This document shows positions 17,391 to 63,309 of a stretch of DNA of 64,000 nt, piece after piece. Source of the DNA: Cloeon dipterum (lineage: Eukaryota; Arthropoda; Insecta; Ephemeroptera; Baetidae); the NCBI RefSeq assembly GCF_949628265.1, contig NC_088788.1, forward strand, positions 6,138,001 through 6,202,000, in the 5' to 3' direction. The notes beneath the pieces were generated by a model. It searched no databases. It was not told where the DNA came from and worked only from the letters and a program-made list of their open reading frames with translations. Every line of letters starts with the position of its first letter. Position 1 is the stretch's first letter. Made by a program: the position numbers and the translations under genes.

Positions 17391-17951
17391 TCATTCGTTG
17401 TCTGACAACGAGCAAAGACGCATAATGCGACCATTGTATGCAAAATTTGCACAAGAACAACCGCTCTTGCAAGGCTCGTAAAATGACAAATCTTTATCAT
17501 TGGTGTGCATAGGGAGAAGTGTCTTAATCCCTTCGCGGAACACTCTTCTATAAGTCCAGTTATTGAAGTGCTCGGTGTTCCAGTGCTTGTCAACATCGTC
17601 ACACCGAAATTGGCACATGAGGCAGTATTCTTTTCCCGAGCCTTCGTCGATCGTGTCCTTTCTGCCATTGCCACATTTGTGGTTTCGAAGTCGATGCTTG
17701 TAAAAGACTCCACTGCAACTTTCGCATCGAGCCAGCTCCTTATGAAATATTCCAAATGGTGCCATGATTTGAGTTCCTTCAAAGCATTTGATGGCGTAGC
17801 AACGCCATTCTTCACCAAATAATTCATTTCGATGCTTATTGTTTGTATGATTTGAGATATTCGTAGAAAATTTTTCACAAATCACACAAAAGCCGTGTAA
17901 GGAATCTTCTGGGGGAGAATCGTTGACGGGTAATTCATACCTCCTTGCCAT
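17391..17951 (-). CDS. TF family protein 1 (three Cys/His fingers)
   Basis: A single coding exon of 186 aa; an acceptor (CACATTTCCAG) lies 39 bp upstream of the ATG, so a 5'UTR intron is likely. Finger A is C-x2-C-x9-H-x4-H starting GFCVICEKF. Finger B is C-x2-C-x6-H-x4-H-x-C (CESCSGVFYKHRLRNHKC). An IDEGSGKEYCLMCQ linker leads into finger C, C-x2-C-x9-H-x4-H ending HWNTEH. The tail is Cys-rich (CKSGCSCANF...RLC). I do not recognise the family in named databases. The residues suggest three or four zinc sites in a small soluble protein. The linker IMAPFG before finger B and the LLP after finger C recur in the other members. Confidence 0.8.
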   Translation of the reverse strand: MARRYELPVNDSPPEDSLHGFCVICEKFSTNISNHTNNKHRNELFGEEWRCYAIKCFEGTQIMAPFGIFHKELARCESCSGVFYKHRLRNHKCGNGRKDTIDEGSGKEYCLMCQFRCDDVDKHWNTEHFNNWTYRRVFREGIKTLLPMHTNDKDLSFYEPCKSGCSCANFAYNGRIMRLCSLSDNE

Positions 17952-20078
17952 ATCTCGGAATAAAAAAGGTCTCTTGAACCTGGAAATGTGAAAGGAGGAT
18001 ATAAATCAATTAAACATGTTTTGATTTAAATCAATACGCCATACCTTAACTTGGTGATAATTATCTGTATAATTATTATATAATCCAAATATTTCTCGGT
18101 TGGTTAAGCCCTAAATATATGATAAACTGTCAGGATAGGGATGAGAGTCTCTCTTAAGGCCTTGGAATGCGTTGCTGCAACATTTTTTTCATTGACGTTA
18201 AAATGAATTTCAATGCCAATCAACAAAAACATTTCGCATCCCAGTTTGAATTTTAAAGAAAATTAATTTAATGAAAAGTAAAAACGTTTTTTATTAAAGG
18301 TAAAAAATAGAACCTCTTTTTAACGTGGTATTTTACAAGCAATATCTTTTAGAGATGGAAAATGTCAAATCTATTGTTAGCTTCGATTAAAAAAAAATAA
18401 ATAAAAAATTGAATACCTATAACAATATCTGGGGGATGCAGAAGGTTTACTCGTTTTGCTCTGGTCCTTCTGTCATGGGTGGGCTCTCTGATTTGGTGGC
18501 ATTTCCTGTACGGGTGATCAATCTCACTTCTTGAGATTCATTCGGAATAAGTAAAATTTCTTGCATGAATTTCAAGAAAGTCAAGCATACCATAGAATTT
18601 CCAAATGAAAAGATTATATTTATAAATTTCCAGAATGCTCCAAAAAATATTACAAGAATTCATATCAGAAACATTGCAAGAATTGCACTCAAATCTTAAT
18701 AATTATTAATTAATAAGCTCAGTCAGTCTTGTGTAAATTTTTTCAAGATGGATAAATTTTATTCTATTTAATGTTAATTAATATTTTTCCATTCACATGC
18801 TTTTGGCGCACCTGCTGGCGCAATTAATGCAACGGACACGAGCATTCAATAGCATTCCAATTAATAGTTATTAAATACTCATTGGTTTCGATTTTTTACA
18901 ATACCATGCTTAATTTTGTCATTTTTTAATAAATATAATTATTTTCTAGAAATTTTAAGGAATTCTACTGAGAGAGAATTATCCATTGTACACATTATGA
19001 ATTTAGATACATACCCACTTGCATTTAAATATCGCGCTGTTTCCATTGGTCTCAGATTTGAATTTTTATAAAACTCTGTTTTATTCGTCGACTGAACATT
19101 ACTAAATCCAAACAAAGAGTGAGCGATAGGATCGCTGCAGGGCTTTACAAAAACCTTTCCTTCCTCGCCTCTATTTCGTAATTTTTTTATAAAACTTTTG
19201 GTGTCAAGCTCAACAAAGTAGGTAAAACTTTATTTCATAATTCAATTGAGCAATGCGGAGTCGAAATTCATGTTAACCATAACCCGTTGGCTCACTTTGT
19301 TACAACATATTCTCAGGAGGGTCAAAGGTCAAAGCAATGGGCTGCTCAATATCAGTGATGGCAAAAGGTGGTTAGTTAAATGACTCGAAAAAATAGCTCC
19401 GCGGGCTGGGAGGCGCACAGGCGCCGGCCGACTCACCACTTGCGCTGGTTTTCGCACCGTTCCAACGGCCTTATGGCGTTTCAATCAAAGACCTCGGTTC
19501 GGGAAGGCGAAAAGATGCGGCCGCATTGGGCCCCAGGTCCTCTGCGGCCACTTGAAATCCGCTCAGCGCTCATAGCCCACGGGATGTGCTGAGCAGAGGC
19601 TTAAAAAAATAAAAGGAAAGGATTTTCAACATATTCTTTATACGTTTTATTCACAAGTCTCTTTTAAATAATTGACTTTACACATAAATGCGGTAGCTAA
19701 AAAGTGGCAAAAGCAAAATTGACTGTTAATGAGGAAACTCAAGTTAAAAAGGTGCCAATTCTGCGGGTTATTTAATTTTCCAGCTGACCACCTCAGTGTA
19801 TAGCCATTTTCATTATACATTTTATTTATTGATTAAAACCTGCGTGTGTTTTATTTCTTTGATATTTTGTATCTTCTAGAAAAGAGAATCTTAGCAATGA
19901 AATACAGATGCATGTATTAAAATCTAGCTAAAAATACACATTTGGCATGACATACAAAGTGACATTATATTCACATATTCGCCTTTATATACATATTTAG
20001 CAAATCAATTTATTTATTGCGTTGAATACACAAAATCTTCCTTTATCGTAATACAACTTTTTTGAATTGGTATGAGTT
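17952..20078. other. Intergenic with one dispersed repeat
   Basis: The only structure I see is the repeat-B copy at 19278-19605. A splice-like block on the minus strand near 18440-18530 could be a non-coding 5' exon of TF1 but shows no convincing frame. Confidence 0.4.
19278..19605 (+). repeat. Dispersed repeat B, copy 1
   Basis: GC-rich block in AT-rich surroundings beginning CCGTTGGCTC. It contains TCAGGAG, a GATGGCAAAA(A)GGTGGTTRG block and CGGGCTGGGAGGCG, and ends GATGTGCTGAGCAGAGG followed by an A-rich run. Similar copies are at 45747-46152, 50310-50688, 55490-55750 and 59835-60060, with fragments near 22590-22720 and 39790-39870. The A-rich 3' end suggests a SINE-like or other retroposed element. 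Confidence 0.6.
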
Positions 20079-20627
20079 TCAGACATGACTATATGCTCCA
20101 GCGCCTAAACATGAAGCCGTTAATCGGTTTATGTATGTAAATTTTGGACAATGTCCACAATCGCAAGGCTTATAAAATAGCAGCTCTCTATAATCGGTGT
20201 ACTTGGGGAGAAGAGTCTTGACTCCGCAGATATTCTCTTTCCTGTAAGTCCAGTTCTTGAAATGCTCATTCCTCCAATGAAAGTCAACGTCATCACATTG
20301 AAATTGGCACATGAGGCAATATTCTGGTCCGAAGCCTTCATCAATAATCAGAGTTGGATTTCCGCAAATATGGTTGAGAAGCCGATGATTGTAAAAGACC
20401 CCTTTGCACGTTTCACACTTAGACAGCTCTTCTTGGCGTGTTCCGATCGGCATCATTGTGAAAATTCCGTAAAACCATTTTAGCTCGTAGCAGTGCCATA
20501 AAACGCCACATAAATCATTTCGATGCGTATTGTCCATATGGTCCGTTATATTTGAAATGAGAAGTTCGCAAACCAAACAGAAACCTAAGGAGTTGTCACC
20601 TCCTCTTAATTTATATTTTCTTTCCAT
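20079..20627 (-). CDS. TF family protein 2
   Basis: 182 aa in one coding exon; an acceptor TACTTTCAG lies about 28 bp upstream of the ATG, as in TF1. Finger A is GFCLVCELL...HMDNTH. Finger B is CETCKGVFYNHRLLNHIC. The linker is IIDEGFGPEYCLMCQ, finger C ends HFHWRNEH-like (DFHWRNEH), and the tail is PCDCGHCPKFTYINRL. All twelve Cys/His finger ligands seen in TF1 are conserved. It is close to TF1 in sequence and position, suggesting a tandem pair. The C-terminus runs on a little past the last Cys. Function unknown. Confidence 0.8.
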   Translation of the reverse strand: MERKYKLRGGDNSLGFCLVCELLISNITDHMDNTHRNDLCGVLWHCYELKWFYGIFTMMPIGTRQEELSKCETCKGVFYNHRLLNHICGNPTLIIDEGFGPEYCLMCQFQCDDVDFHWRNEHFKNWTYRKENICGVKTLLPKYTDYRELLFYKPCDCGHCPKFTYINRLTASCLGAGAYSHV

Positions 20628-21738: not shown

Positions 21739-22860
21739 TTACTCAGTCCTTGAGAAGCATCCCATGCGTTCAGGGACAAGGGTGAGTATTTTTTCTGAAC
21801 CATTGTTAGGGTGAATATATCGAACTTTATATTTTTTACTGTAGTTGTGCACTGTGTACCAATGAATATGGATACCATCACAGTGAATTTGGCAAATTAG
21901 GCAGTAATGATGTCCGTTTCCCGCGTCGATCAAACGCTTTGGAATGCCACAAGTATGATGTAGAATGCGATGCTCGTAAAATACTCCGAGGCAAGCTTCA
22001 CACTTGATCAGTTCCGTTTCAAGACATGTTCCCCGTGGAGCCATGATTTGACTGTCTCCAAACATAATAATTTCATATTTCGGATTTGGAATGGGGTCGT
22101 ATCCATTTTGGTGTTTGTAAATCATATGGGCTTTGATGAAATTGTCTTCGGATTCGCAGACTACGCAAAATCCTTTGAGGCCGCTAGGATGAGATGAAGG
22201 CCCCTCCGCGATGGACACTGCAACTATTTTTTTAGAGTAGAACAATTACATTTATTTATATTGAGCCCTTACCGTCAGTGAAGGGCCTTTGGGCTGTTTC
22301 AGTTTCATTCTCATTGGCAGGGGCCGGTGTCTGGCCTTCGGTAAGGAATCCCTGATTACCAGATGGCCAGGAAAATAACTCTTCTGGCGGGGTAAAGCTA
22401 AATAAACAACAGTTATTATTTATTTATTGAACTTTTAATAACATGGCCAATAAATGGATAATAATATCAAAGTAGTCAAAGATTGGCTTTTAGGTCCAAT
22501 CGTGGCCGTCTTTTTGGCTACCCGCACCAAGTTCTTTCAATTTAAATGCTAGAATTTTTCTCTTACCCCGCTGGAAAGGTACGAAAGTTTTTGCGAGCTA
22601 TTTGAGCCCCCTAATTAACCACTTTTGGCCATCTGTGATATTGGGCAGCTAGGAAAATATATCCCCGAATTGCTCAAATATCTTCCATTGCCTAGCAATG
22701 CAAGCAAAACGGCCACAAGATTTTTTTACTCATTATTTAATGTAATCAATATCAAGACTTACGGATTGTTCATTTCTGTAAAGCAAGAAGGACTATCACA
22801 GAAATTGCTTCTTCCGTCACAAATGTTTCCAGAGCAGTTTTCACAGATTTGGTTTTCCAT
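21739..22860 (-). CDS. TF family protein 3, with N-terminal Cys module
   Basis: Three exons, 22763-22860, 22273-22397 and 21739-22217, join in phase to 233 aa. Exon 1 encodes an extra Cys module with C-x2-C and later C-x4-C (MENQICENC ... FCDSPSC). Exon 2 is an acidic Pro/Thr/Glu linker. Exon 3 holds fingers A (GFCVVCESED...HMIYKH), B (CEACLGVFYEHRILHHTC) and C (CLICQIHC...HWYTVH). Unlike other members it ends at VPERMGCFSRTE, lacking the Cys-rich tail, and the IDEG linker reads IDAGNGHHYCLICQ. A fragment of repeat B lies in intron 1. An upstream start reading through the last intron (Met at 22245) is rejected because the acceptor and phase support the three-exon form. Confidence 0.75.
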
Positions 22861-23573: not shown

Positions 23574-25048
23574 TCAATCTTTGCCACACGCACGTTTGAT
23601 GCGGCCTTTGTACTTCATTTGCAGGCAAGCACCGCAGCTGCAGGGTTTAAAATACTCCAGATCCGCCGTTAAATTGGTTAGCTTGGGCAGCAGTGTTCGT
23701 ATGCCCTTTACTTCCAGGATTTCGTAAATCTGATTTCTTTCGTGCTCATCGGTCCAGTGATCGTCCAGATCATCGCAGCGCAACTGGCACATGAGACAGA
23801 ATTTCAGTCCCAGTCCCTCGTCGATCAAATTCCTTGGGTTGCCACATTCGTGGTTGAGCAGACGATGACTGTAAAATACGCCATGACAGGTTTCGCACAC
23901 GGAGAGTTCCGTTTTGAAACGTACGCCCCACGGCGCCATCAGCCGCCTTCCTTTGTACATATAAATTTCATAGCAATTTCTCTTCAGCGGCCTGATAACG
24001 TTCAAGTGCAAAGTGCTCATGTGAAATCTGAGGAATGGGAAATCCCTTTCGCAGATCACGCAGAAGCCGGATCTGTTAGTTTTCTCGACGAACATCTCGC
24101 CTGCTGGTCCTTGTATAACGGTCGGAGTCGGTTTATGCACAGGGGCATCCATTGAGTCGATAGAAACTGAAAGGATTTTTAGGGTGGTTTCTATGTAATA
24201 ATGTAAAAAATTTACTAAAAGCTAACTGAACAATAAATTAATCCAGATCAGCGGGGCCAGATTCGTGCGACGCGCAGATATGGCGTCCGGTGGAGTTTGG
24301 TGCGAAATAACGGTCACGTGAAAATGCGCGAAGCAAGTTTTCGTCAATATTGTGACGTATAATTTGCATTACTTGTACTAATTGTGCCTTTTGGATCGTA
24401 AAAACAAACTCTTGACACTCGCACGGCAATCCATAGAAAGCTTTTTGTTTCCCACATTCAGACGCCATCTTGGATCTGCGCAGTTCGAACCAATTTTATA
24501 TCGCACATCTGGTCCCCGCTGATCCAGATTGTGCTTTTCAATTTTCAGATAAAATGGCCGTTAGAGTTAGCATGTAAATCAACCGGTTGGACATTATGTC
24601 TTCAAATTAAAAATAATTTATTGCACATTCAGGAAACTCATAATTTGCACAGCATAGGATAGCTTGTGACGAGAGGAGTCGAAATTACGCTTCCTGCTTG
24701 GGAAAATAATGCATAGCTATTTGAAAGTATGTTCTTGAAATTTTCTAATTGGAAATTCATTTTACTTTAAAGGCGAGTTACGCACCTGGAATTATACTTT
24801 GGGCTCCTAGCTCAGACGAGTTTTCACTTCCTGCAGGCATGTTTTGAGCATTGTCCGGTACTTTCTCGTTTTTCGTCAAGTCCTGTCCATCTCCTTGATC
24901 AGAAATTCTGTGCGAGAGATTTGAGGATGGCTAATTTGAATTATTGAGGATTTTGTTCTTACATATCGGTGCAAAATGAATTTGAACAAAGCCCATTTTC
25001 CTTGCGAAAAAGGAAAGTGCATTTGCTGCACCTCTTGCGCTGCTTCAT
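23574..25048 (-). CDS. TF family protein 4, with N-terminal Cys module
   Basis: Three exons, 24963-25048, 24786-24907 and 23574-24166, join in phase to 266 aa. Exon 1 encodes a basic start and C-x2-C-x10-C-x4-C (MKQRKRCSKC ... LCSNSFC), matching the TF3 module in spacing. Exon 2 is an acidic, Asn/Ser-rich linker ending SIIP. Exon 3 starts VSID, parallel to VSIA in TF3. It contains fingers A (GFCVICERD...HMSTLH), B (CETCHGVFYSHRLLNHEC), C (CLMCQLRC...HWTDEH) and the tail CSCGACLQMKYKGRIKRAC. The exon just upstream of the ATG is open, so a further 5' exon is possible. MITE copy 2 sits in intron 2. Confidence 0.77.
24249..24521. mobile_element. hAT-like MITE, copy 2, with perfect 8-bp target duplication
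   Basis: A 273-bp element with ends CAGCGGGGCCAGAT and ATCTGGTCCCCGCTG, flanked by ATCCAGAT at 24241-24248 and again at 24522-24529. An 8-bp duplication with CAG-starting ends is the hAT pattern. It lies in intron 2 of TF4. Confidence 0.9.
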
Positions 25049-27266: not shown

Positions 27267-27827
27267 TCATTCACATTGCCGTTTAGTACGCATTTTATAA
27301 CCAAACAACACACAGGAGTTAAAATTAGAGCAGGAGTTGTATTTCATCAATTCCAAATCGTCTTTGTTATGTTTTGGGAGAAGGGTTGTCACACCATGAA
27401 TGGATCTCACCTCATAACTGGTGTTATTGCCATGCACATAAAGCCAGTGGAACGACAAATTATCAGTTAAAAGTTGACACAACAGGCAGTATTCTGGCCC
27501 CTTTCCTTCGTCGATTAAGCCTAACATATTTCTACAGCTATGGTTGAAACGGCGATGAGTGAAAAATATTCCGAGGCAAAATTCACATTGGACCAGCTCT
27601 CTTTCAAGCATTGTCCCTATCGGCACCATAATGTACTTATCTTTGAAAGCTTTGACTTCGTAGCATCGGTCTGGACTTACTTTAGGTTCATTGTGATGCA
27701 CCAAAGCCATGTGCGTCTTAACATCAACGGAATCTATCTCGCAAATCACACAAAAGCCAACTTCATTTGTCGGTTTAGATTTTTTTTCGCCTGGTCCAGG
27801 GTTGGATTTGCTTTTTCTAGTAGCCAT
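27267..27827 (-). CDS. TF family protein 5
   Basis: 186 aa in one coding exon. A TTCTTGCAG acceptor lies about 20 bp before the ATG, and the following ACCGTGTCACTTGATCA matches the 5'UTR exon start of TF6-TF9. The N-terminus is basic (MATRKSKSNPGPGEKK). Finger A is GFCVICEIDS...HMALVH, finger B CEFCLGIFFTHRRFNHSC, the linker IDEGKGPEYCLLCQ, and finger C ends HWLYVH. The tail keeps Cys residues but with altered spacing (SCSNFNSCVLFGYKM...QC). It is the last TF gene of the array and has no esterase behind it. Confidence 0.8.
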   Translation of the reverse strand: MATRKSKSNPGPGEKKSKPTNEVGFCVICEIDSVDVKTHMALVHHNEPKVSPDRCYEVKAFKDKYIMVPIGTMLERELVQCEFCLGIFFTHRRFNHSCRNMLGLIDEGKGPEYCLLCQLLTDNLSFHWLYVHGNNTSYEVRSIHGVTTLLPKHNKDDLELMKYNSCSNFNSCVLFGYKMRTKRQCE

Positions 27828-28300: not shown

Positions 28301-28846
28301 ATATTTATTAAAAAATTTAAAGGATTTTTGAAAGCGAATTTTGTCGGTCTGAGCTCTCATTATCAGTGCAGCCCAAAAATCATTTTTTTTCTAATTTTTT
28401 TATTTAAATCCATTTACAATCCTTTCTGTTATTTGTTTATTGATGACTCAATAGCAGAATTTTTAATCGTACTCTTTAGGCAATGTGATACCTTTGAGCA
28501 TTTTGGGATCTATTCCTATGCAGTTGAAAAATATTACATATTGAGAGACTAATGTCTGGCGTTTAAAAAAAACGTTGCCACGGGGATCTGAAAAAAATAG
28601 CCACTTATTTGGGCCCAAAATTTTCGATTTATAATTTGATCTAGAAAGACTATATGGTATTAAATTAACGTAATTCACTGATATTTATTATAATGATAGA
28701 ATATAGGCCGCTACTAGAATTAAACTATGCATTATTGCTATTTCTTGCATGCAAAAGTGTTTGATTGATATACAAAAAATATATACGGAGCGCTTTATAT
28801 ACGCATGCTTTGATATAATTCAATAATTTTTTTTTGAATTTTCCAG

Positions 28847-29012
28847 TATGACCCAGAGGGATTTGGAGAAATTCCGTGGGATGATTCGTCGTCGCCCTCC
28901 ACTCTCCGGATTTTACTTCGCAAGTGGAGCCAAACAAACGAGAAATCCAGGCTGAAAAGGCGTAAAAGCGACTCACCTCCGCAATCACCTTTTAGAACTT
29001 TGTCATAATGTC
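28847..29012 (+). pseudogene. Exon remnant, copy 1 (RDLEKFRGMI / RRKSDSPPQSP)
   Basis: Follows a good acceptor (GAATTTTCCAG). One frame reads QRDLEKFRGMI and another, later, KRRKSDSPPQSPFRTLS. The second copy at 40145-40305 keeps both in a single frame, so this copy carries a frameshift. The parent gene is not in the window. Confidence 0.45.
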
Positions 29013-29195
29013 GTGAATACAAAAATTTCAAATTGCTTTTGAAAATGATTATTTTTATTTCAAATGGAATAGAGAGCTAATCAAAAAGACCATTAATTGA
29101 ATATTGAAAAAATAATTTAGCAACTAACGTCATTCAGAAATAATAATTTGTATGTGACTTTACAAAACATTTTCCTGTTCTTGGCTAAAGATTTT

Positions 29196-32100
29196 CTAGT
29201 TTAAATGAAACCCAGCTGCTCGTTTTACGCGGTCAGGTCTCGTAAGTTTATAGATCCAAGAATTCTCCCAGATGAGTTTGGCCCAGAACTGCATGCGTTT
29301 GTCGTTGAGACTCCTGTCGTTCATGACCAGTTTTTCTCCCAGGTCCAAGTAGCTTGTGATTAGTTTATCAGGATCGTTGCTCGATTTGCGCACCGGCAGC
29401 CACTTGACGCCGCTTGTTGCGTCCGGGGTTGGGTTCCTAAATGCGTGTTGTTATTTAAATATTCAAGGGAGGAAATATACTCGTACCCTTTCTCTGCGAA
29501 GTTGGCCCACAGGGTCGTGATCTGGCTGATGAAGGCTCTGTCCCGGGCCGGAGCGCGCTGCCACGAGTCGGAAATGTTCATCGTGAACAGATAGCCCAGG
29601 TCGTCGCCGTGGGAAGTTCCTATAATTATTTTATCATTTTTCACAATTGGTTTTTGTAAAATGAAAATATTCAAAATACAAATTTACACTCTGAAATGAA
29701 TATTGTTTTTCAGAAATTAATTAAAATTTGGATCATCAGTTTTCATTTCTAACCAAATTCAGATTGGGCACGGAAAATAGCTTTCTTGAGAGTTATTTGT
29801 CCTTTTTGTTCATTTTTTATTTAATTAATTTTTCATTTAAAAACGAATGCGAACCTGTCCTGTTGGTTGGCACGCGGCTCTTAATCAAACTAGTGATAGA
29901 GCCGTTGTACGATAGCTGATAATAGAAAACCGGACTCTTCCTGTTCTCTTTGGCAACCGTTTCTCTCACCAACTGGTCCACTCCAAGCGTGAATTGTGCG
30001 TCTGAAGCCATCTGTTGAATTTAATTAATTCAACTTAAATTATTTGAAATTAAAAAAAAATATACCAGGAGATATTGCTCCATTTCATCAACAGGCATGG
30101 ATTTGTAGTAAGCTGATATTTGTTTCCACGCATTTTCAAACTGGGAAGTGTTTCTCTTCAGTCCTAACAAGCGAGGAACATAGAAGTCCCTGTTTTCGGT
30201 GAATTCCTTTGTCACGTTGAGCGGACGAAGCACTATAACATCACTTTTTTATCAATACATTGGTAGGAAATTTTCAATAAATACCGAAATTTGTGTTTTT
30301 ATTGTGTAATTTTAAATTTCCCAAAATTCTATTGCATTATAATTATTATAAGTTTATCTGTGTTTATATTGAAACAAATTTTTCTCCCTAACATTTCTTG
30401 CTGTATTCGTGTGTAAAATTTTAATTTTATCAATCAAGAATTCGTCCCAATTTTAGGTAATCTGAATTAATTTCCACCTCCAGCCTAGTATTTCATTTAA
30501 TTTATTAATTAAAAAATAATTATCATAAAATACTCACAAATCATGTTGAGCATGGCCTCATGAGTGGTGACTCCGGTCATGATGGGCACGTCTGGCAATA
30601 GCATTTTATCATTTCTGAAAAGCTCGGGTGCTCGGGTACTCTCGAGCGAGACAGCCAGGTATCTGCGTCTCTCGCGAACGGTCAGGGCGCTCGCCTCGTC
30701 CACCAATTTCTGAATGTCCAAACCGCGCAGGCATTTCGCCTTTTCTTCATAACTACCATTTCCGCAGCCCAGGTTTTCCACAGCTCGCCCATAAACCTTG
30801 AAGCCGTCCGCCTGGAATGCCCAGTTGTGAAACACAGAGCCACTTTGCAAAATCGCCTTGTGGTACAACCCTGAAATATTATATTTGGCTCAAAAAACAT
30901 AAGCATCAATTTGAGAAAATGAATTTCTCAGAAATTCCAGATAAATTCTCAGTTATTGAGTATATAAAAATTCTAGAGAGTCTTATTGGACCGAAAATAA
31001 GAAATAATTCGAGGGTTGTATTACCTTTGGCCAGGGGTGAAATAAGAATGTAATGAATGCTTGATGCTCCAGTATTCCACCCAAACAGTGTCACAGAATT
31101 CGGGTCTCCGCCAAATGCCGCAATGTTTTCCTGAACCCACTTCAAAGCGTGAATTTGGTCCCTAATTGCATAATTGCCGTGCAGCTCTTTACTACCCACG
31201 TTCAACAGACCTATATTGGAGGGAAAAAATAGTTTTAGCTGGAAATATTGCTTCTCTTTGTATTCAAATGCCAACAACACAGACGGAGGCTCGGATCAAT
31301 ACAAAATTATTTTGCTGACGGCTCTCCATTTTTTCTCCTGATGGATTGGAGAAACTTGACCGAGCTTTGACTGCACATTTTTGACATGCAGAACAAATAT
31401 ATAAAATATTTATTAAACTTTTCCTCCCTTAGAAAATAAATTCATGTACGTTACATAACCAAAAACGATTGTTTTAGTGGGGAAACCTTATGTTAAATTA
31501 TATTTTAATAGTTTCATTTTTTCTTCAAATAACCCATAAATAAATTTTGACGCACCAAGGAGTCCGAGTCTGTAGTTTAGAGTGACGAGGACAATGTCCT
31601 TGTCCATCAAAATCTCCGGACCTGTGAGTTGGACGCTGCTCGACCCTTCGACCATTCCTCCACCGTGGATCCACACCATCACCGGCAGTGCCCGTTTTGA
31701 GTTGATCTGCGACGGTTGATTAAATTTTAAAATTAAACAAATCATGAATTAAATTCTGAATTCACTTGAGGTGTGTACACATTGAGAAAGAGGCAGTCTT
31801 CAGAGCCAGAAAAGAGTCGGGTGATTTGGTCGTACTGCGGACAGTCACTTCCTTCTTTCGTGGCCATCAAGGTGCCGTTCCATCCTGCGTGCTCAACTGG
31901 GCTCTAATTTAAAAAATATATGCATTTTTCCCTTAAATTGTGAAATATTATTTTGATTTATTATTTTTTAATATATAATTTGATATCTTGGTTAATTTTG
32001 GTGAGGAAAGCATTGGTCCGGATTCGTTTATAGACGTTAATTTGATGTTAAAATTGTGGTTTTCTTATAATTCCAAACTAAACATCAACCAAAATCTTTT

Positions 32101-32344: not shown

Positions 32345-32641
32345 TTTCGATCAGAAGCTAACTACTGGTCGTTGACCGGAAAAATCAAAATCCTTTATAA
32401 ACTGAGTGGCTTCCGATTTTATTTTTAAATGCGGTTCACCGCACTGACCGCGTCCAAAGCTTAATGACGGTTTAACAATAACAAAATTCCCAAAGTGGTC
32501 AAAAAATTATATAGGGTGTGCAGCCAAGAATTAAAATCTCACATTTAAAAGTTAATTTCAATTTTAATGTTTCAAAAATCATTTGGAGCTGATAAATCTT
32601 TGAAATGATATTTTTCAGTAGCTCATGCCACTTGATCTTCC

Positions 32642-47123: not shown

Positions 47124-49114
47124 ATGGCTGAGGTGGACAAGTTGCACCTGACGAAGAAGCGTCTACAAAATCTCCGAGGGAGAAGCCTCGGTTTGCAGCA
47201 ACTCGCAGTTCGAGTGATTTCCAAGCAACTGACATTTTATACTTCACAACATGATGAGCTGGAGAAACTCAAGAGTTTGCGTGAGTTATCATTTTCATTC
47301 GAATATTACGAGAACGGAACGATATCGAGGTAATTTATAGCTGGCGTTTTACGAGAAAAAATTTTGCAAGTTTTAATGAAGAAGAAGTGTTTGGACATTC
47401 AGGGTCGGGAAATGGAGTTTGAAAATTTGAAAGTGGTCTTCCCATTGCTTCTGAGCCCAAGAACCCGCTACATAGAGTTGAACAGCATTTTGTCCTTTTG
47501 TCCTGACTCTTTTGAAGACAGTAAAAATGATAAGGTAACCGTATTATCAGTAATAAACGTGAAGTGAAAATAAAAACATTTAATTTCAGGTGACACCATG
47601 GGTCGTCGAACTTTTAAAACATATCGAAACACGTGCTCCGCAAGTGGAGAATCTCGTCATAAAACGAAACAATTATTTTTACAAAAACGGCCTTTCCTTT
47701 TTTGCAACAAGTGTCGCGTTCAATCGGGATATGGTGCAATCACTCATGAAAATGCGAAAATTGAACAGGCTTACAGTTACCTTGTATTACTTTGATTCCA
47801 CCAGTTTTCTTAAAATATGCAAAAATCTTCCGAGTCTACAGTACATCAATGTCGAGTTTTTATATAACAGAGGCAATGTCAGGCCAGCCACTGAAGACGT
47901 ATCAAGCAGCCTTTGCAATGTGAAAGAAATTATATACCAAAGCATTCCTTATACCGACGATTACTTGGCTATTTTTTGCACCCAAAATCTTCCAAACATT
48001 GAGGTAGTTGGATATGATCCGAACAAACTAGTGGACATATTCAGCATCAGAAGAGATGCCAATAGATATCATAGTTTGGAATTCCATGGAGCCTCAAATC
48101 TGCGAAACATTTCTGTGGACCTCTCAACGGATAGTAAAGAAGAAGTTGAATCAATGCCCGATTTATTTCCAAACGTCACCTGTCTCATGGTGAGTATTTG
48201 CTATTTTTGGAATTATCTAATTAATTTTAGATTTTTAATCCTAATTTAAACATACGCACCTATCACATATATTATGCGTCACCTAATTAAGCACTATTTT
48301 TTTTTAATTTTAAAGGTTAACAACATTAAGCGTTCATCTTTGGGAGAGAATGTAATGCCAAAATTCCACAATATTAGACAGCTTCATTTGTTGGATCCTT
48401 ACTACAGCGGAGTTTTTGAGAAGTATTTGATCACCTACGGACAAAAGTTGCAATCACTCTACTTGGGATATTATGGTGGAGATATAACAATAGACTTAAA
48501 ATTGATTTTCAAGTACTGTCCGAAACTTGAAAAATTGTCACTGCTCAATGTGTTTTTAAAAACGCCATTATCAAAAATAGAATATTTTGCGGAGCTGAAG
48601 GAATTCGAATGGGCAATTATCTAGTAAGTATTACAGACTTCATTTGTAATTAATTAACTGAGTTCTTAAATATATAGTTATAGAAGCACTCCTGATGGAA
48701 TACCTGATCCACACAGCAAGGATTTGTCCAACATTTTATCAGCTCCAAAACTAGAAAAAGTCAAGCTCGAATCGAGTGTTCTTAAGCAAAATGATCTTTT
48801 GAATCTCAACTCTTTGATTCAAGCAAATCGAATTTTAAACAACCTAAACACTTTGCACGTCTATTTTAAAGATCCCATCGATGAAGCTTTGGCTAATGTT
48901 TTGAAGAGTGCGTGTGCATATCTTCCGAAGTTAACTGATTTCAAGTAAGTGGCAAATTGATTTGATCGTACTTTGATGAAAACATTTTTGTCTTTGCAGA
49001 TTCGGAAAAAGATATAATTTTGAAGACCCGCTCCTGGCAATCCGATTGACTCCACTCAGTGTTATCGATGAAAGTGTTTGTCAGATGATTGGTGTTTTTG
49101 AAAACGAAAATTAA
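47124..49114 (+). CDS. Leucine-rich-repeat protein, F-box-like N-terminus (LRR1)
   Basis: Six exons (47124-47280, 47341-47534, 47590-48189, 48316-48623, 48678-48944, 49000-49114) join in frame to 546 aa. The N-terminus has paired basic helices (MAEVDKLHLTKKRLQNL) and then LPGVLREKILQVLMKK, which resembles the start of an F-box. It is followed by repeating units such as APQVENLVI, LNRLTVTLYYF, LPSLQYINVEF, IRQLHLLD, LQSLYLGYY and LEKLSLLNV, typical of leucine-rich repeats. Such proteins often act as substrate receptors of ubiquitin ligases, but the F-box is not certain. Start at the MAEV ATG because the upstream frame lacks an ATG. Introns are 54-126 bp. AATAAA follows the stop within 10 bp. 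Confidence 0.82.
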
Positions 49115-51403: not shown

Positions 51404-53067
51404 TTTGTCATATTTCACAACTTATGCAAGCCATGAAAAGTGATGTGGCAAGAATAAAGGCCAGCAACACCTTTTTCTGAGGAGAGGGGGAAAATGGTGT
51501 GGACAATAATTATAAAACCCACAGGCGGGAAATTTTTTAATTCGAATAAAAATATATTTGATGTATTGCAAATCGTTTTTTACATTTTTAAAAGGTAAGA
51601 CTTAAATATGACACGTGCTCTACCACCGAAAATTTTCTCCAAAACAAAAATTCAACGTGTCTTCTAAATTTCATTAAAAAAAATTCTCTTCACATTCGAC
51701 TAGATTACTTTAAGCGGTTCTGTCACGTGTCTCAAATTTAAATTCTTTAAAGTAAATAATTTAATATAAAATAAATGAGCAGCGCTATTTTTCTCGAGCC
51801 TCGCAGTTGCTCTCCTTCATTATTTTATTAGTACTGAACATTTTTTTACAATATAGTGTATGTAATTTACTTATCAATTAATCTAACCATTAGGTTTTTT
51901 TTTAAAAATAATCTTGGAACAAATATCGTGCACGGGAAAAATTTGAATTTTACAAAAAAAATAGACATTTTGTCATTATTTGAGAGGCGGCCTTTGCTGC
52001 TCGCGTTACATCCGCACCCGCGGCGATTTCATTGTATCGCTCACATAGAGAACCGAGTGGCCGTGAATGAGAGGCTTGACAGCTTTATGAGGGAGGGCAG
52101 TAAAGAAAATTCGAAAGAAAGCGCATTGTTTGCTTAATTTAGCGTTGCTGGACGGTGCCGGAATGAAAAGCTGCCAAAGAAGCTAAATTTCCGAAAATAT
52201 TTAAAAAAAGCATGACTGCAGTTAAGACATATTCCTGTGTCACAACTTTAAAGCAGGTTTCATAATTTATGACTCGTTTTTTTTGTGATTTACTTATCTT
52301 TGAATTAAAATAAAAGTTCTGTTCCCCTGAGTTGTCTTTTTTAATGCAATTTATTTTCTTTATGTCGTAATGACCAAAATTTTAAAGTTTTAACTGTGCA
52401 ACATTCCCTTCTTAAATTAAATTATCATTTTTTGGCCAGAATACTAATCATCAATTAAAGAAAAAAATTGAATTTCCGCAGGATTTAGAGCAGGAATTTT
52501 TTTATAATAAAAAATTGCTAAAAGGATATTTACTGTTTAAAAAATTGATGACAGAAGAAAGGCAAAGGCAAAGGTAGATTAAAAAATAACAAAGGCCCTG
52601 TGTTCCACGCAATTTCAAGCTGAGCTTAAATTTCTACAATTTAATTTTAAATTATTTTTGTCCTTTTATCTTGTAAGGATGCCTCTATTCCATCAAACTA
52701 CAACACTCAAATCACTTAAAAGACCCATCATATTGTTTGTCATTAGAATTAAATAGGGTTCTGCTTGATCCAAGCGGCGCGATATTCGGCAGGACGCGTG
52801 CTCGCTGTGTGTGTAGCATCGGCAACGATGAGTTTACGCTGCGGCTTCAGTTCTTCTTAGCCTAAAAATAAAAATTTTGTTGAAGAAATAGATTTTTTGC
52901 CACCTTGCCTTTGTTCTAACCTTCAACGTACGAGATTTGCATACAAACGGCGCATTCGCCACATTTGTGAAAAAGTGCAGGGACAAATTTCTTACAATTT
53001 ACAATCCATCGACCGAGAAGATACTGCACACAGATTTTTCCGATCCTATTAGAAACGGTTTTTGCAA
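51404..53067. other. Intergenic
   Basis: AT-rich. A frame at 51856-52137 has a basic, His-rich part but no splice support. The block at about 52920-53040 resembles the 3'UTR region of TF10. No gene called. Confidence 0.4.
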
Positions 53068-54005: not shown

Positions 54006-54730
54006 ATGTCTTTTCCTTCCACATCATCAAACCAAATGCAAGGTGCGTTTTAAAATGAAAATAAAATTTCATATTGTAACATTGCTCTGTTGGCATAAAG
54101 CTAAAAGTCATTTTAATTCTTTTCTAAATGTTAAAATTTGATTTTATTTTTAAATAAATGTTTTCAGGTCTTCCTAGCAGTCCAGGACTTTCAAGAGGCC
54201 ATTTGCGCCCCGTAACGAATGGAACTTCATATGGCTTCTGTGTGTTTTGTGAAAAGCATTTTGGTAATATCTACGCACACAAGGTGAATTATCACAGAAA
54301 TAGCAGTATCTACCAAGTGCATCTTTTTGATGGCATGAAGATTATGGCCACACGCCAAATATATACTGACTTGGAACTGAGCAAATGCCGTGAGTGTGAA
54401 GGTGTGTTCTATAAGCATCGATTGTACAATCATGAATGCCGCAACACACCATCAATTATCAGCGAGGGATCTGGAGAACATCTCTGCCTAATGTGTCAAT
54501 TGTACAACCATGACATATATGGCCATTGGAGAGTGACCCACGCCAACAATAACTCTTATAAGGTTATTGAACTGTTAAACTCGCTATCGTTAGTACCTCA
54601 TGACCCTGAAGTTTTGTCAGAAGTTATTACAAGACCCGAATGCATTTATTGCCCTTTTTTTAAAAAAATATTTATGAGAGTAATATTGAGAAATCGTATT
54701 TATCACAACTGTTTAGATTTAAATGATTAA
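54006..54730 (+). CDS. TF family protein 10 (plus strand)
   Basis: Two exons, 54006-54042 and 54168-54730, join in phase to 199 aa, starting MSFPSTSSNQMQ. Finger A is GFCVFCEKHF...HKVNYH, finger B CRECEGVFYKHRLYNHEC, and finger C CLMCQLYN...HWRVTH. The IDEG linker has diverged to ISEGSGEHLCLMCQ, and the tail is C-x2-C followed by a basic stretch and a last Cys (CIYCPFF ... YHNC). It is the only member on the plus strand and the most diverged in its tail, and it lies between the two LRR genes. Confidence 0.8.
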
Positions 54731-54955
54731 CCATCGACCGGCAGTGCAAGTTTGTAAAAACCTTAGATCAAAAAGAGAAATATATACTCTTAAGAGAAAC
54801 TATTAAAGCAATGTATTTACATGTGAAATTTTGTGATTTGATGGATTTTTTTCCATTTAATCATCAGAAAAATAAAAACTAAACATACGTTATTCACAAT
54901 AAGTTTTTGCCTATCATTTTTTACACGAACTCTCCGAAATACCTTAATTCCTGCA

Positions 54956-55075
54956 GGTGATACAAATCTTTATTCAGAAATAGTTTCTGTACTACGATGC
55001 CCTAATTGTACTCATCTTCCCATATTTAGATTGTTGTTTAGACGGCGTGTTTTTCATTATTGTGTACATTAATCC
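54956..55075 (+). pseudogene. Duplicate of the TF10 C-terminal exon
   Basis: After an ATTCCTGCAG acceptor, a frame reads SEIVSVLRCPNCTHLPIFRL ... FHYCVH and stops. This parallels the TF10 end (SEVITRPECIYCPFFKKI ... YHNC). The 3' flank also resembles the TF10 3'UTR. Either an alternative last exon or a relic of a tandem copy. Confidence 0.5.
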
Positions 55076-56473: not shown

Positions 56474-58473
56474 TTAATTTTCGTTTTCAAAAACACCAAT
56501 CATCTCACAAACACTTTCATCGATAACACTGAGTGGAGTCGATTGGATTGGCAGGAGCGGGTCTTCAAATTTAAATCTTTTTCCGAATCTGCAAAGAAAA
56601 AATGTTTCATCAAAGTACGATCAAATCAACTTGCCACTTACTTGAAATCAGTTAACTTCGGAAGATATGCACACGCACTCTTCAAAACATTAGCCAAAGC
56701 TTCATCGATGGGATTTTTAAAATAGACGTGCAAAGTGTTTAGGTTATTTAAAATTCGATTTTCTTGAATCAAAGAGTTGAGATTCAAAAGATCATTTTGG
56801 TTAAAAACATTCGACTCCAGCTTGACTATTTCTAGTTTTGGAGCTGATAAAATGTTGGACAAATCCTTGCTGTGTGGATCAGGTATTCCATCAAGAGCGC
56901 TTCTGTCACTATATATGTATTTATGAAATCAGTTAGTTAATTACAAAAAGGAAGTATGTAATACTTACTAAACATTTACCCATTCGAATTCCTTCAGCTC
57001 CGCAAAAAATTCTATTTTTGATGATGACGCTTCAAGGTACACGTTCAGCAGTGACAATTTTTCTAGTTTCGGACAGTTCTTGAAAATCAATTTGAAATCT
57101 ATCGTTATTTTTTCAGCCCAATGTCCCAAATAAAGGGATTGCAAATTTTGTCCGTAGGTGTTCAAATACTTCTCAAAGACTCCGCTGTAGTGAGGATCCA
57201 ACAAATGAAGCTGTCTAATATTGTCAAATTTTGGCATCAAAATGTTTGTCAAATTCTCTCGAAATCTTGAACACTTAGTGTTGTTAACCTTTAAAATTAA
57301 ATAAAAATACTGCTTAAATAGGTGACGCAAAATTTTTGCAATAGGTGCGTATGTTTAAATTAGGATTAATCAATCACATAATTCCAAAAAAAGCAAAAAA
57401 TACTCACCATGAGACAGGTGACGTTTGGAAATAATTTGGGCATTGATTTAACTTCTTCTGCACTATCCGTAAAGAGGTCCACAGAAATATTTCGCAGATT
57501 TGAGGCTCCATGGAATTCCAAATTATGATATCTATTAGCATCTCTTCTGATGCTGAATATGTCAACTAGTTTGTTCGGATCATATCCAACTATTTCAATG
57601 TTTGGAAGATTTTGGGTGCACAAAATAGCCAAGTAATCGTCGTCGGTATAAGGAGGGTTTTGGTATATAATTTCTTTCACGTTGCAAAGGCTGCTTGATA
57701 CGTCTTCAATGGCTGGCATGTCCTTGCCCCTGTTAAAAATCGACTCGACATTGATGTACTGTAGACTCGGAAGATTTTTGCATATTTTAAGAAAACTGGT
57801 GGAATCAAAGTAATACAAGGTAACTGTAAGCCTGTTCAATTTCCGCATTTTCATCAGTGATTGCACCATTTCCAGATTGAACTCGACACCTGTTGCAAAA
57901 AAGGAAATCCCCTTTTTGTAAAAATAATTGTTTCGTTTTATGACGAGAGTCTCCACTTGCGGAGCACGTGTTTCGATATGTTTTAAAAGTTCGACGACCC
58001 ATCGTGTCACCTGAAATTAAAGGTTTTTTTCACTTCACGTATATTACTGGTTATACGGTTACCTCATCATTTTTACAGTCTTCAAAAGAGTCAGGACAAA
58101 AGGACAAAATGCTGTTCAACTCTATGTAGCGGGTTCTTGAGCTCAGAAGCAATGGGAAGACCACTTTCAAATTTTCAAACTCCATTTCCCGACCCTGAAT
58201 GTCCAAACACTTCTTCTTCATTAAAACTTGCAAAATTTTTTCTCGTAAAACGTCAGCTGTAAATTACATCGACATCGTTCCGTTCTCTAAATATTCAATT
58301 GAAAATGATAACTCACGCAAACTCTTGAGTTTCTCGAGCTCGTCATGTTGTGAAGTATAAAATGTCAGTTGCTTCAAAATCACTCGAACAGCGAGTTGCT
58401 GCAAACCATGGCTTCTCCTTCGCAGATTTTGTAGCCGCTTCTTGGTCAGGTGCAACTTGTCCACCTCAGCCAT
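56474..58473 (-). CDS. Leucine-rich-repeat protein, F-box-like N-terminus (LRR2)
   Basis: Six exons (58317-58473, 58063-58256, 57408-58010, 56969-57288, 56642-56908, 56474-56588) join in frame to 551 aa, colinear with LRR1. Exons 3 and 4 are longer by 3 and 12 bp (1 and 4 codons). It has the same N-terminus (MAEVDKLHLTKKRLQNLRR), LPDVLREKILQVLMKK, and the same leucine-rich units. All splice sites are canonical. It faces LRR1 tail to tail and sits in the middle of a palindrome. The high similarity to LRR1 includes introns and about 900 bp of 5' flank, which points to recent duplication or gene conversion. Confidence 0.83.
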
Positions 58474-58984
58474 TGTAGAGAAATGTTCAAATGTCAAACA
58501 ATAACAGAGAGCTCAAAATTGTGCGGAAATTCCACAGAATTGATGTGTTCAAATGCCAAGAAATGTGTGAATCAATTTCCTTTTATACGTTTTTCCCTTG
58601 CCACATGATTACTTATTATTTCCGTAAATATTTTGAAAACCTCTACAAAACCTGTTATTAAAACTTGTAAAAACATATTTTTGTTTTTAAATTACGTTTG
58701 TATTGAATGAATAATTTTTGAAAAACACGTACAAGAGTAAGATAATGTAATTCAAAAAACAATGATATTTTATTGATATTGGTGGTTTAGGGGAAAATAG
58801 AAGGTTAGAAATATTGAAGAACAACCAAATTAATTCCATTTATTTGTTATAACGAACAATATTTTTGCTGAGATTATGCACCACACACCATTTAGTTTAA
58901 AATAACCTCAATAATATGCTATCTCGTTATAAATAAAATTGAAAACCAGTGGGAAAGGCAAAATTTGAATTTGGAAACACTTTA

Positions 58985-60125
58985 GCGGAGATGAATAAAT
59001 ATTTTAACTCTATAGAGCAATGTCATTGAGCTTTATATTTGCAATTAAAGCTTTTGTGCCTCTTGATAGCAAAAATAGAGCAAAATACATTCATGCATTT
59101 TATTGTAGTGTTTTCATAAGCCTACAGGTACGAATGGAGCTGAGCCAGCAGCCGGCTACAGTTTTTGCTGGACAAACGATTTGGAGCTCTTATAAGTACT
59201 AATCCATCATTGAGGCGGTTTCGCGCTAAGCAGCCGACAGAGAAATCAACCAACGAGAGACCCGGCCTTTTTAACCGCGAAGCAACCAGCATCCGCTCGC
59301 ACAACAGTTATTGCTTTCTCAACGCAGGAGAGTTTTGAGTGTATCTGCACATCTGCACCCTCGCCAGCAGCAAAGTTTTTGCTCGCAATAGTTTGCAAAA
59401 GAGGAAGGTAGATTTTATTGACCAAATATCTGCCTCTATGCATGCATCATTAGGGTTTTGCAAAACCGACTATCGATTATTTTTTTTCTCGTGCCTCTAT
59501 ATCATGTCCAAACTATCGAATGAGTGCGAATTATCAATATTTAACCATTTTGACATAATTTCGAAGTCGATTATTTCATCCAAAACGACCATTTATCGAT
59601 TGCCTTCAATATTAAAAACGATTATTTTTTATATTTAGATTTTCTCATTATTTTGTCGGAAAACACGAAATCCACGAACGTGCAGAAATGATTAAAGCTG
59701 CAGAGTGGTTTCCATAGCCATTTTATTAAAGGAATATTAACAAACATTCATTGATTAATTAAATTATACTGGTTTTCATGGCTCAAATTTTAATATTGAT
59801 GGTTTGTTGTTTTTTCTTTTAACAGTTAATGTCGATAATATGTATGAGCGCAGAGGCTCAATATAGCCGCATCTTATCGCCTCGCCACAGCGAGGTGTTT
59901 CATTGAAACGCCATAGATATTTGTCTGTAAGGCCGCTGGAAAGGTGTGAAACCCACAGCAAGCGTCTCGCAACCCGCTGAGCTCTTTGAACATTTCGAAT
60001 TTCCAAATTTACCTTTGCCATCTTTGGCTGCTAGCAAATATAGATTCTTGAAGTATGAAATATCTCACATCACATTCTATTCTAACTTTTAAGAATTCCT
60101 AAATAATGCCGGCTGATATTGCATA
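58985..60125. repeat. Right arm of large palindrome around LRR2
   Basis: Repeat R direct (58985-59410), then repeat-B-like sequence inverted (59835-60060), then the GGAATTC block near 60095. The mirror image is at 55400-56430. A 300-bp segment at 59430-59700 appears only in this arm. Confidence 0.75.
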
Positions 60126-60789
60126 CCCTAATTTTATTTTTTTAAATTCCTTTAAATTGAGAGGGCAAATAATTTGTTTAATTTATTATAAACGATATCT
60201 TATTATTTTTCCTTCCGATGTTCTCACAAACAGCACAAATTTTCTGAAAAAAAAATATTTGCTCATCTTTAAAAAAAAGTATTTAAATGGTGCTCCAACT
60301 GAATCAAACTAGAGCGTTCATCGGGAGAGCAAAACTGTTCCCGCTCCTGTCTTGTCCCGCATTATTACTCCCGGTTTTGACCCGCCTCCCGAGATTTGGT
60401 GAACACTCGCTCTCGGTCTTGTCCCGGTTCTCAATTTCATAGGTGCACTCCCGGTGACTCCCGGTCTTTTAAAATAGCATTTATAACATTGGGTGATTTT
60501 AAGACCAACAAAATTTGTAAAAAAAATAGTGCACTTTGGCAAGTTTCTTAAAAGAGGTTTTGCAGCTTGTTTAATTGTTTTATTTTCTAATCGCTGCTAT
60601 TATAATTACAAGATGCCTATGTAGCATCCAGCGCATTAAACCAAAATTTCAAAAGTCAGAAGATAATACATATGATAAAAAAGGCATTTTTAATATATCA
60701 TAAATATAAACTACATACGGATTAAATTGGTTTAAATTACAGATGATTTCCAAACTATTATAAATTTCGGTGAAATCCCTGGAAAATGC
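60126..60789. other. Between palindrome and LRR3
   Basis: 60240-60312 repeats 51322-51402. A CCCGGT/CCCG-rich patch of loosely repeated units lies at 60330-60470. No gene seen. Confidence 0.4.
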
Positions 60790-61383
60790 AAGTAGACCTA
60801 TTGCAAAAAGGATATACCCTTTTTGAAAAAATAATTGTTTCGTTTTATGACGAGAGTCTCCACTTGCGGAGCACGTGTTTCGATATGTTTTAAAAGTTCG
60901 ACGACCCATCGTGTCACCTGAAATTAAAGGTTTTTATTTTCACTTCACGTTTATTACTGATAATACGGTTACCTCATCATTTTTACTGTCTTCAACAGAG
61001 TCAGGAAAAAAGGACAAAATGCTGTTCAACTCTATGTAGCGGGTTCTTGAGCTCAGAAGCAATGGGAAGACCACTTTCAAATTTTCAAACTCCATTTCCC
61101 GATCCTGCAAGTCCAAACACTTCTTCTTCATTAAAACTTGCAAAATTTTGTCACGCAAATCGTCAGCTGTAAATTACCTCGATATCGTTCCGTTCTCTAA
61201 ATATTCAATTTAAAATGATAACTCACGCAAACTCTTGAGTTTCTCAAGCTCGTCATGTTGTGAAGTATAAAATGTCAGTTGCTTCGAAATCACTCGAACT
61301 GCGAGTTGCTGCAAATCGAGGCTTCTCCTTCGCAGATTTTGTAGCCGCTTCTTGGTCAGGTGCAACTTGTCCACCTCAGCCAT
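60790..61383 (-). pseudogene. Truncated LRR paralogue (LRR3)
   Basis: Exon 1 (61227-61383) and exon 2 (60973-61166) match LRR1 and LRR2 closely. Exon 3 starts at 60917 and runs in frame for about 35 codons, then similarity stops near 60800. The remaining leucine-rich repeats are missing. About 600 bp of 5' flank is also shared with LRR2. Confidence 0.85.
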
Positions 61384-61969
61384 TGTAGAAAAATGTTCAA
61401 ATGTCAAACAATAACAGAGCGAGTTAAAAATTGTGCGGAAATTCCACAGAATTGATGTGTTCAAATGCCAAGAAATGTGTGAATCAATTTCCTTTTATAC
61501 GTTTTTCCCTTGCCACATGATTACTTATTATTTCCGTAAATATTTTGAAAACCCCTACAAAACCTATTATTAAAATTTGAAAAAACATATTTTTGTTTTT
61601 AAATTACTTTTGTATTGAATGAATAATTTTTGAAAAACACTTACAAGAGTATGATAATGTAATTCAAAAACAATGATATTTTATTGATATTGGTGGTTTG
61701 GGGGAAAATAGAAGGGTAGAAATATTGAAGAGCGACCAAATTCCATTAAGAATTTAGTTAATGTTTCAATTCTAATCAAATACTAGATTTGAAATTGATT
61801 TACAATAATTCATGAATATTTCTTTTGAAATAGTTATAACGAACAATATTTTTGCTGAGATTATGCACCACACACCATTTAGTTTAAAATAACCTCAATA
61901 ATATGCTATCTCGTGATAAATAAATTTAAAAACCAGTGGGAAAGGCAAAATTTGAATTTGGAAAACTCT

Positions 61970-62033: not shown

Positions 62034-62281
62034 TTTTTTTTTTAATAAAAGAAATTATCATTTGCGCTTACTTATCCTAGATTTTTTTATTTTGAAAATG
62101 GTTCTTTCTAAAAATTGTTACATCAAATCACAAGTTGAGTTTGTTGATTGGCACGAAATTGCCAAAGCACTCTTTGGAAATGTTGAATTTCAAATCTAAT
62201 CTAATTTGTTTCTAAAGTGGGTAAAATCTTTTCTTGGACTGTAAATTTTGTCACCAAGTATAAAATTCTGTCCTTATTGGC

Positions 62282-63309
62282 CTAAGTTTTAATACATGAG
62301 CGAATCAAACGCATTTTGTATGTAAATTTCAGACGGCAACCGCATTTGCACGGATCTAAAACACTTATGTCAACTCTAAAATCGGTATAACGAGGGACAA
62401 GTGTTGCCATTTCAAATAACATTCTAATCTCATAGCTCGGATTACAATAATGCTCATTTTTCCAATGGGTCAGAATTTTATCAGTGCGGTATTGACACAT
62501 CAAGCAGTATTGTAATCCTTTTCCTTCGTCGATCATGCCTTGATGATTGCCACATCCGTGGTTGTGGTTGAGAATGCGATGCTTGTAGAAAACACCGGGA
62601 CACCACTTGCATTTTTCCAGCTCGCGATCGAGATAAACGTTGCTTGGTGCCAATATTTGAGTGTCCCCGAACCACTGAATACTGTAGCAAGATGTATATC
62701 TGTATTTGGAAAATTGGTGCCTCTCGCCCAAGTGTTCCACGAGATCATCGCACGTGCATTCGCAAATTACGCAGAATCCACGACGAACAAATAATCTTTT
62801 AAATCGTATCCATTTGCTTGTAATGGCGTTGTAAATTCTTCCCCAAATACCATCTTCTGCAAAAATGTTCAAAAAATTAATATCTTTTTTATCGGAATCG
62901 GAATCAGCGGGGGCCGGATGAGCGATACAATTGGTTCCCACTGCGCAGATCCAAGATGGCGTCTGACTGTGGGAAACAATATAATATACTCTCTTTGGAT
63001 TCCCGTTCAAATGTCAAGAGTTTGTTTTTACGATTTAAAAGACACAATTAGCAAATTATCTCCAAATATTGACCAAAACTTGCTTCTTTTCGCGCATTTT
63101 CATACGTGACCGCTTTTCGCGCATTTTCACGTGACTGCTTTTCGCGCCATATACTCCACCGGACGCCATATCTACGCGTCGCACGAATCTAGCCCCCGCT
63201 GATCGGAATAATATAATGCTGTACTGCTATATAATGATAAGTTTTTATCAAACAAACCTGGTATAATTTGGTTTTCTTCCTCCTCATTAGATGAATCAAA
63301 TTCGGACAT
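62282..63309 (-). CDS. TF family protein 11
   Basis: Two exons, 63258-63309 and 62282-62856, join in phase to 208 aa. Exon 1 is short and acidic (MSEFDSSNEEEENQIIP). Exon 2 opens EDGIWGRIYNAITSKW and a basic stretch, then finger A (GFCVICECTC...HLGERH), finger B with a small insertion (CKWCPGVFYKHRILNHNHGC), the linker IDEGKGLQYCLMCQ, finger C (HWKNEH) and the tail PCKCGCRLKFTYKMRLIRSC. A longer open frame to 63010 reads into MITE copy 4 and is rejected because TTTTTGCAG at 62857 splices in phase. The intron contains the MITE. Confidence 0.8.
62905..63201. mobile_element. hAT-like MITE, copy 4, with perfect 8-bp target duplication
   Basis: A 297-bp element, inverted relative to copies 1 and 2, with ends CAGCGGGGGCCGGAT and TAGCCCCCGCTG, flanked on both sides by ATCGGAAT (62897-62904 and 63202-63209). 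A short internal unit (CGCGCATTTTCA-ACGTGAC) is tandemly doubled, explaining the extra length. It lies in the TF11 intron. Confidence 0.92.

Follow-up and report, generated by a model that had tools for sequence, protein, structure and literature searches.

Classical C2H2 zinc fingers follow the spacing C-x2,4-C-x12-H-x3,5-H. Among lineage-specific zinc-finger multigene families, the ZAD-ZNF genes are described as duplicated and, in some members, fast-evolving (PMC7655104), and the KRAB-ZNF genes and the fish FZNF genes as clusters of young tandem genes (PMC10547256). A precedent of another kind is CEP104, whose four C2HC fingers are reported to pack together as a single globular domain that binds proteins (PMC5222566). 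We compare with these systems a family of small proteins with short, putatively zinc-binding fingers from the mayfly Cloeon dipterum. The starting point is a stretch of 64,000 nucleotides on contig C3 (NC_088788.1), C3:6138001-6202000, hereafter the window, in a genome of 190 Mb and ten contigs.

Eleven open frames between positions 17391 and 63010 of the window carry a block of fingers A, B and C, ten on the minus strand and one on the plus strand (54158-54730). The motif C-x2-C-x9-H-x4-H occurs 22 times in the window and the ordered A-B-C block 11 times; 40 random windows from a first-order Markov model gave a mean of 0.025 motifs per window and no block. Thirty columns are invariant across all eleven members. 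An earlier note, made from the letters alone, had listed these members, and all of them are present. Its count of an eleven-member family falls far short, as the genome holds at least 152 loci, and its array end at 63309 moves to 63010, where the last frame ends, with in-frame stops just upstream of that frame.

No curated family scored above threshold, and we treat the finger proteins as an undescribed, mayfly-expanded zinc-domain family, within the kind of lineage-specific zinc-finger multigene families. The best explanation, to which we give even odds (about 0.5), is that mayflies expanded a set of intracellular, zinc-scaffolded recognition proteins that probably bind other proteins and possibly form a repertoire used in conflict.

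Two tandem units and their ligands

The earlier note had described a three-finger protein with a separate C-x-C-x2-C...C tail. When 51 diverse modules were split before finger C, hhalign profiles of the A-B half and the C-D half matched with a probability of 98.7% and a score of 78.0; the best score among 30 column-shuffled decoys was 18.3. The match shows that the protein is (A-B)(C-D), two tandem copies of one two-finger unit of about 80 residues. In alignment the tail matches finger B and makes up a fourth, degenerate finger, D, a worn counterpart of finger B that has lost its regular spacing. Some members, such as member 3, end before finger D. Three units, A-B twice and then C-D, are found in 21 fetched relatives; 20 of these lie at 5.33-5.42 Mb on C3 and one at 29.99 Mb on C5. 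A divergent subfamily (L045, L046, L048 and P0003) has 140-220 residues of frame ahead of finger A, in which no Pfam domain scored above cut-off.

Ten ligand columns are invariant in all 51 diverse modules: C, C and H of finger A; C, C, H and C of finger B; and one C and both H of finger C. The fetched loci supplied 84 full modules, or 76 once 8 identical duplicates were dropped. Among these 76, the other Cys of finger C is kept in 75, and the second His of finger A stands 2-5 residues after the first in 73. Finger B had been read as C-x2-C-x6-H-x4-H-x-C; its ligands are instead C-x2-C-x11-H-x-C. The first His of the older pattern (the His-81 position) is invariant in the eleven members of the window, yet only 47 of the 76 family modules have a His there, and the position has 11 amino-acid changes in 28 sister pairs; on these grounds we rejected it as a zinc ligand. 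In the eleven members, fingers A and C both have nine residues, not twelve, in the loop from Cys to His; across the 76 modules the loop of finger A has nine residues in 63 and twelve in one. The family thus departs from the classical C2H2 spacing.

Constraint and change

Substitution was assessed by simple counting of the Nei-Gojobori type, as the ratio of nonsynonymous to synonymous rates (dN/dS), in 28 disjoint sister pairs that use 56 of the 76 modules and leave out 20, with the second His of finger A assigned to the loop and not to the ligands. The 14 ligand columns had 5 nonsynonymous and 30 synonymous changes, a dN/dS of 0.02. This near-absolute constraint on the ligand codons argues for the zinc-binding family that the earlier note had proposed. 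The non-ligand columns gave 0.94 (bootstrap 0.83-1.05). By structural element the ratio was 1.02 for helix, 1.00 for loop and 0.75 for strand, and 0.82 for everything together.

Amino-acid change exceeded the neutral expectation at 5 of 160 sites (Benjamini-Hochberg <0.05). Three of them, S13, G10 and L14, precede finger A in a loosely aligned stretch; D29 belongs to the finger A helix and N132 to the second hairpin. Positive selection was considered and is not claimed, because three of these sites are loosely aligned and neighbouring genes also change fast. The earlier proposal of linkers conserved beyond what DNA-contact helices would show survives in part, since the stretch ahead of finger A ranks among those that change fastest. 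Three pairs of finger genes in the window gave dN/dS values of 0.36, 0.73 and 1.16. Across 315 non-independent pairs, finger A shows a proportion of synonymous differences of 0.40 and finger C one of 0.20, a hint of gene conversion in the second half that warns against simple readings of dN/dS.

Predicted fold

Member 2 (TF2; 20079-20627, minus strand, 182 residues) was modelled with AlphaFold2 both whole, from 13 sequences, and as unit A-B alone (20322-20594, minus), from 20. The whole protein reached a predicted local distance difference test score (pLDDT) of 82.4 and a predicted template-modelling score (pTM) of 0.79; three of its five models scored 80-82 and the other two close to 69. The single unit reached a pLDDT of 82.3 and a pTM of 0.71, its five models ranging from 78.6 to 82.3. 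In both models finger A is built of two strands and a helix and is followed by a hairpin of two six-residue strands, and finger B consists of short strands and a short helix. In the whole-protein model, the strand-strand-helix and the hairpin recur in finger C of unit C-D (20082-20330, minus), the degenerate finger D is reduced to two short strands, and the last residues are poorly predicted. One unit and the whole protein alike are predicted to adopt a compact fold.

Family size and tandem arrays

The count of 152 loci, from four merged protein searches of the genome in each of which at most 150 candidates were scored, is a lower bound and includes fragments. Of these loci, 77 lie on C3 (clusters of 23, 2, 11, 27, 13 and 1), 2 on C4 and 73 on C5 (clusters of 1, 6, 1, 54, 9 and 2). 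The nearest relative in the tree lies within 20 kb for 40 of the 76 modules, compared with a mean of 4.5 and a maximum of 14 in 200 label shuffles. Within the window, duplicated segments of 1.3-3.6 kb and about 80-90% identity carry esterase exons, a finger gene or both. Such close-by nearest relatives and duplicated segments point to tandem duplication, not transposition. Copies also die, as two relics on the plus strand indicate: a finger D fragment at 52861-52974 and a C-D fragment at 54938-55063, downstream of member 10. One genome search gave 155 matches; among the matches listed, 10 rows have a stop inside the match, one of which is merely the terminator of member 7 itself.

Comparison with described families

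A Pfam scan covered all 51 diverse modules, and bit scores accompany its rows with E up to 0.02-0.1. No model reached its cut-off in these modules or in the eleven members of the window. The nearest was zf-DBF (PF07535), at 23.2 bits against a cut-off of 24.8 in L038. It matched finger A or C weakly in 11 of 51 modules, at 19.3 bits or less in the others with bit scores; only one finger of the unit resembles it. An Ephrin_rec_like match in L031 (21.3 bits, cut-off 23.1) is presumably a coincidence of Cys spacing, and zf-C2H2_4 appeared below cut-off in 2 of 51 modules, with a best E of 0.021. Among profile searches of PDB sequences, one gave only designed Pizza proteins, with E no better than 0.061, another SPT6 at E 0.24, and a third no match; we take these rows as chance. 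NCBIfam gave one row at E 0.091, nothing significant. The earlier finding of no match to a named family is thus borne out: these searches yielded no significant match of the whole three-finger block to a described family.

The likeness to CEP104 is that four short fingers share one globular domain, here by prediction and in CEP104 as reported. CEP104_ZnF (PF21039) matched 11 of 51 modules, all below threshold (best 17.5 bits, cut-off 27.4); on member 2 the match covers residues 17-120 at 16.6 bits, along unit A-B and the start of finger C. Fingers A and C, however, are C2H2 here and C2HC in CEP104, each unit here contains an extra beta hairpin, the mayfly proteins form a fast-evolving multigene family, and the Pfam scans gave no TOG match. 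CEP104 was absent among the structural matches listed, though the packing may be alike all the same.

The likeness to the ZAD-ZNF genes lies in lineage-specific duplication and fast evolution, yet the mayfly family has no C-terminal array of classical C2H2 fingers, and no ZAD row appeared at E up to 5 in 10 of the 11 window frames, scanned as frames alone. With KRAB-ZNF and FZNF genes the family shares clusters of young tandem genes, but those genes carry classical DNA-reading C2H2 arrays, in place of the two or three packed units predicted here.

Relatives outside the assembly are few. A set of 5.8 billion proteins returned only P0001, P0002 and P0003, each annotated 'Hypothetical predicted protein [Cloeon dipterum]'. 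As far as the searched databases reach, the family is lineage-specific, as the earlier note had supposed; the restriction to Cloeon may be an effect of coverage. Viral and prokaryote contigs gave 19 and 7 pattern matches, none confirmed; phages gave no match to member 9 and plasmids none to member 2. We found no description of the family among the matches listed from titles and abstracts of the open-licence mayfly literature, and PMC7250882 makes no mention of 'zinc finger' in its main text.

Gene structure and public records

Member 3 (TF3, minus strand) has an open frame at 21739-22245 and two further coding exons upstream. Its three coding exons lie at 22763-22773 (beginning MNN and followed by GTAAGT), 22273-22397 (an N-terminal segment with AG and GT at its borders) and 21739-22217 (fingers A, B and C, without finger D), an arrangement backed by the GT/AG borders and by agreement with P0001. 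The ends of a frame are therefore not always the ends of a protein. Members 5 to 8 share a splice-acceptor-like TTGCAG/ACCGT 23 or 138 bases ahead of the frame start, which member 9 lacks; upstream exons are thus likely in some other members too. Member 1 has a splice-acceptor-like site just upstream. A simple hydropathy scan of the eleven frames found no strongly hydrophobic leader, the best 15-residue mean hydropathy being 0.51-1.82.

P0001 is collinear with member 3 (83% identity over 98 residues), member 2 (87% over 142 residues) and pieces upstream of member 1 (18395-18537). This public gene model appears to be a mis-annotation that fuses two finger genes with pieces upstream of a third. 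P0002 is 80% identical to member 4 over 173 residues. Judged by these alignments of finger proteins alone, the finger proteins differ strongly between the assembly behind these records and the one studied here.

Other members and neighbouring genes in the window

The remaining members on the minus strand are member 1 (TF1; 17391-17951, 186 residues, units A-B and C-D), member 4 (TF4; 23574-24152, 192 residues), member 5 (TF5; 27267-27827, 186 residues) and member 11 (TF11; 62282-63010), whose frame of 242 residues starts with TTG. Members 6 to 9, also on the minus strand, lie in duplicated esterase-plus-finger segments: TF6 (32642-33277) and TF7 (35759-36394) with 211 residues each, and TF8 (38417-39058) and TF9 (43990-44631) with 213 each, the frame of TF9 starting with TTG. 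Member 10 (TF10; 54158-54730, 190 residues), the sole plus-strand member, has an insertion in finger D.

Carboxylesterase exons (PF00135) at 28541-44719 were duplicated along with finger genes 6 to 9, and some copies look incomplete. Genes resembling leucine-rich repeat (LRR) genes form an inverted pair at 47040-48624 (plus) and 56968-61464 (minus), the best piece being 88% identical; their Pfam match is weak (LRR_14, E 0.087). They belong to a second very large family with at least 131 matches at E<=0.001 among the best 150 of 347 candidates, and most of the strongest matches fall in those regions of C3 and C5 that also contain the finger family. Long frames on the minus strand at 13195-15271 adjoin the array; two were scanned with Pfam, with no convincing match.

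Proposed mode of action and alternative explanations

We propose that the family encodes small proteins without an apparent secretion signal, each built of two, sometimes three, tandem units. Every unit would hold two zinc ions, in the order of a short C2H2 finger (C-x2-C-x9-H-x4-H), a beta hairpin and a C2HC finger (C-x2-C-x11-H-x-C), and the units are predicted to pack as a compact body, not as beads on a string. The putative zinc core stays constant while residues of helices and loops evolve at close to the synonymous rate, a pattern like that of a set of binding proteins undergoing diversification, with copies born and lost through tandem duplication. Most likely, by analogy with CEP104, the packed zinc body recognizes proteins, and many copies would then offer many binding surfaces. 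A role in host-parasite or genome conflict, which is a guess, would account for both copy number and turnover. A bolder form of this proposal, in which mayflies multiplied an undescribed animal zinc domain into an intracellular repertoire of more than 150 copies in conflict with viruses, parasites or transposons, is tentative and stands well short of even odds.

Binding of proteins is favoured by four features taken together: the predicted ordered body, the acidic helix region of finger C, the weak net charge and the CEP104 precedent. The helix region of finger C is net acidic in 59 of 76 modules, which fits a protein partner better than DNA, and net charge has a median of only +2.7 per 100 residues over the 76 modules, that of member 2 being net negative. 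Nucleic-acid-binding regulators, a mayfly counterpart of the ZAD-ZNF and KRAB-ZNF genes whose fingers read DNA or RNA and whose arrays track transposons, are nonetheless a possible alternative, about as tentative as the bolder proposal above. Clustered young zinc-finger families of other animals are described as acting in this way (PMC10547256, PMC7655104), D29, among the fastest sites, sits on the finger A helix beside the first ligand His, and 69 of 76 modules have a net basic finger B loop, 49 a net basic A-B hairpin. The charge of finger C and of the whole module speaks against it, as do the nine-residue loops, the single packed body of the model and the failure of any Pfam C2H2 model to reach its cut-off. 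Ordinary duplicates drifting under relaxed constraint, with a conserved fold, no repertoire function and many copies redundant or dying, seem unlikely. The pace of the adjoining esterase and LRR exons, the truncated members, the two relics and the overall dN/dS would suit drift, but the ligand ratio means that the copies sampled are retained as zinc proteins, and few of the matches listed contain an internal stop.

Two further explanations appear highly improbable, both far below drift. Metal buffering or zinc storage in aquatic nymphs would draw on the many Cys and His residues of each protein and on the freshwater habit of mayflies. The ligands, however, sit within a predicted ordered fold along with other strongly constrained core residues, and the proteins are unlike a short Cys-rich metallothionein. 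That the frames are parts of a transposable element would explain high copy number and four short flank matches (72-206 bases, 75-82%) between pairs of members outside the duplicated esterase segments. Against this, the loci lie mostly in tandem arrays and are not scattered; in 1-kb flanks of the eleven members, similarity otherwise consists of whole duplicated segments, which in some cases take in esterase exons, or is confined to the coding block, with no ends common to all copies; and the searches of viral and prokaryote contigs, of phages with member 9 and of plasmids with member 2 yielded no relative. We rejected a transposon origin on the strength of the tandem arrays, the segment duplication and the three exons of member 3.

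Several observations weigh against the preferred reading of intracellular, protein-binding recognition proteins. The net basic charge of finger B, the A-B hairpin and finger D would suit nucleic acid. Three of 76 modules, all close relatives, have no second His in finger A. Total amino-acid change over the 160 sites is 1314, below the neutral expectation of 1605, and members 8 and 9 have a dN/dS of only 0.36. Neighbouring duplicated exons gave 0.56, 0.58 and 0.71 for the esterase and 0.72 and 0.53 for the LRR genes, so that the fast change of the finger genes may reflect no more than the usual relaxation that follows duplication. Member 3 is the only one with an identified start exon, and an upstream exon could supply a leader in others.

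Implications

At 152 loci or more in a genome of 190 Mb, the family would rank among the larger gene families of a mayfly. Most of its members are possibly missing from public annotation, given three protein records for that many loci. The family offers a directly testable zinc domain along with more than 100 natural surface variants. Should it prove to be a conflict repertoire, it would parallel in an insect the clustered recognition families of vertebrates and nematodes.

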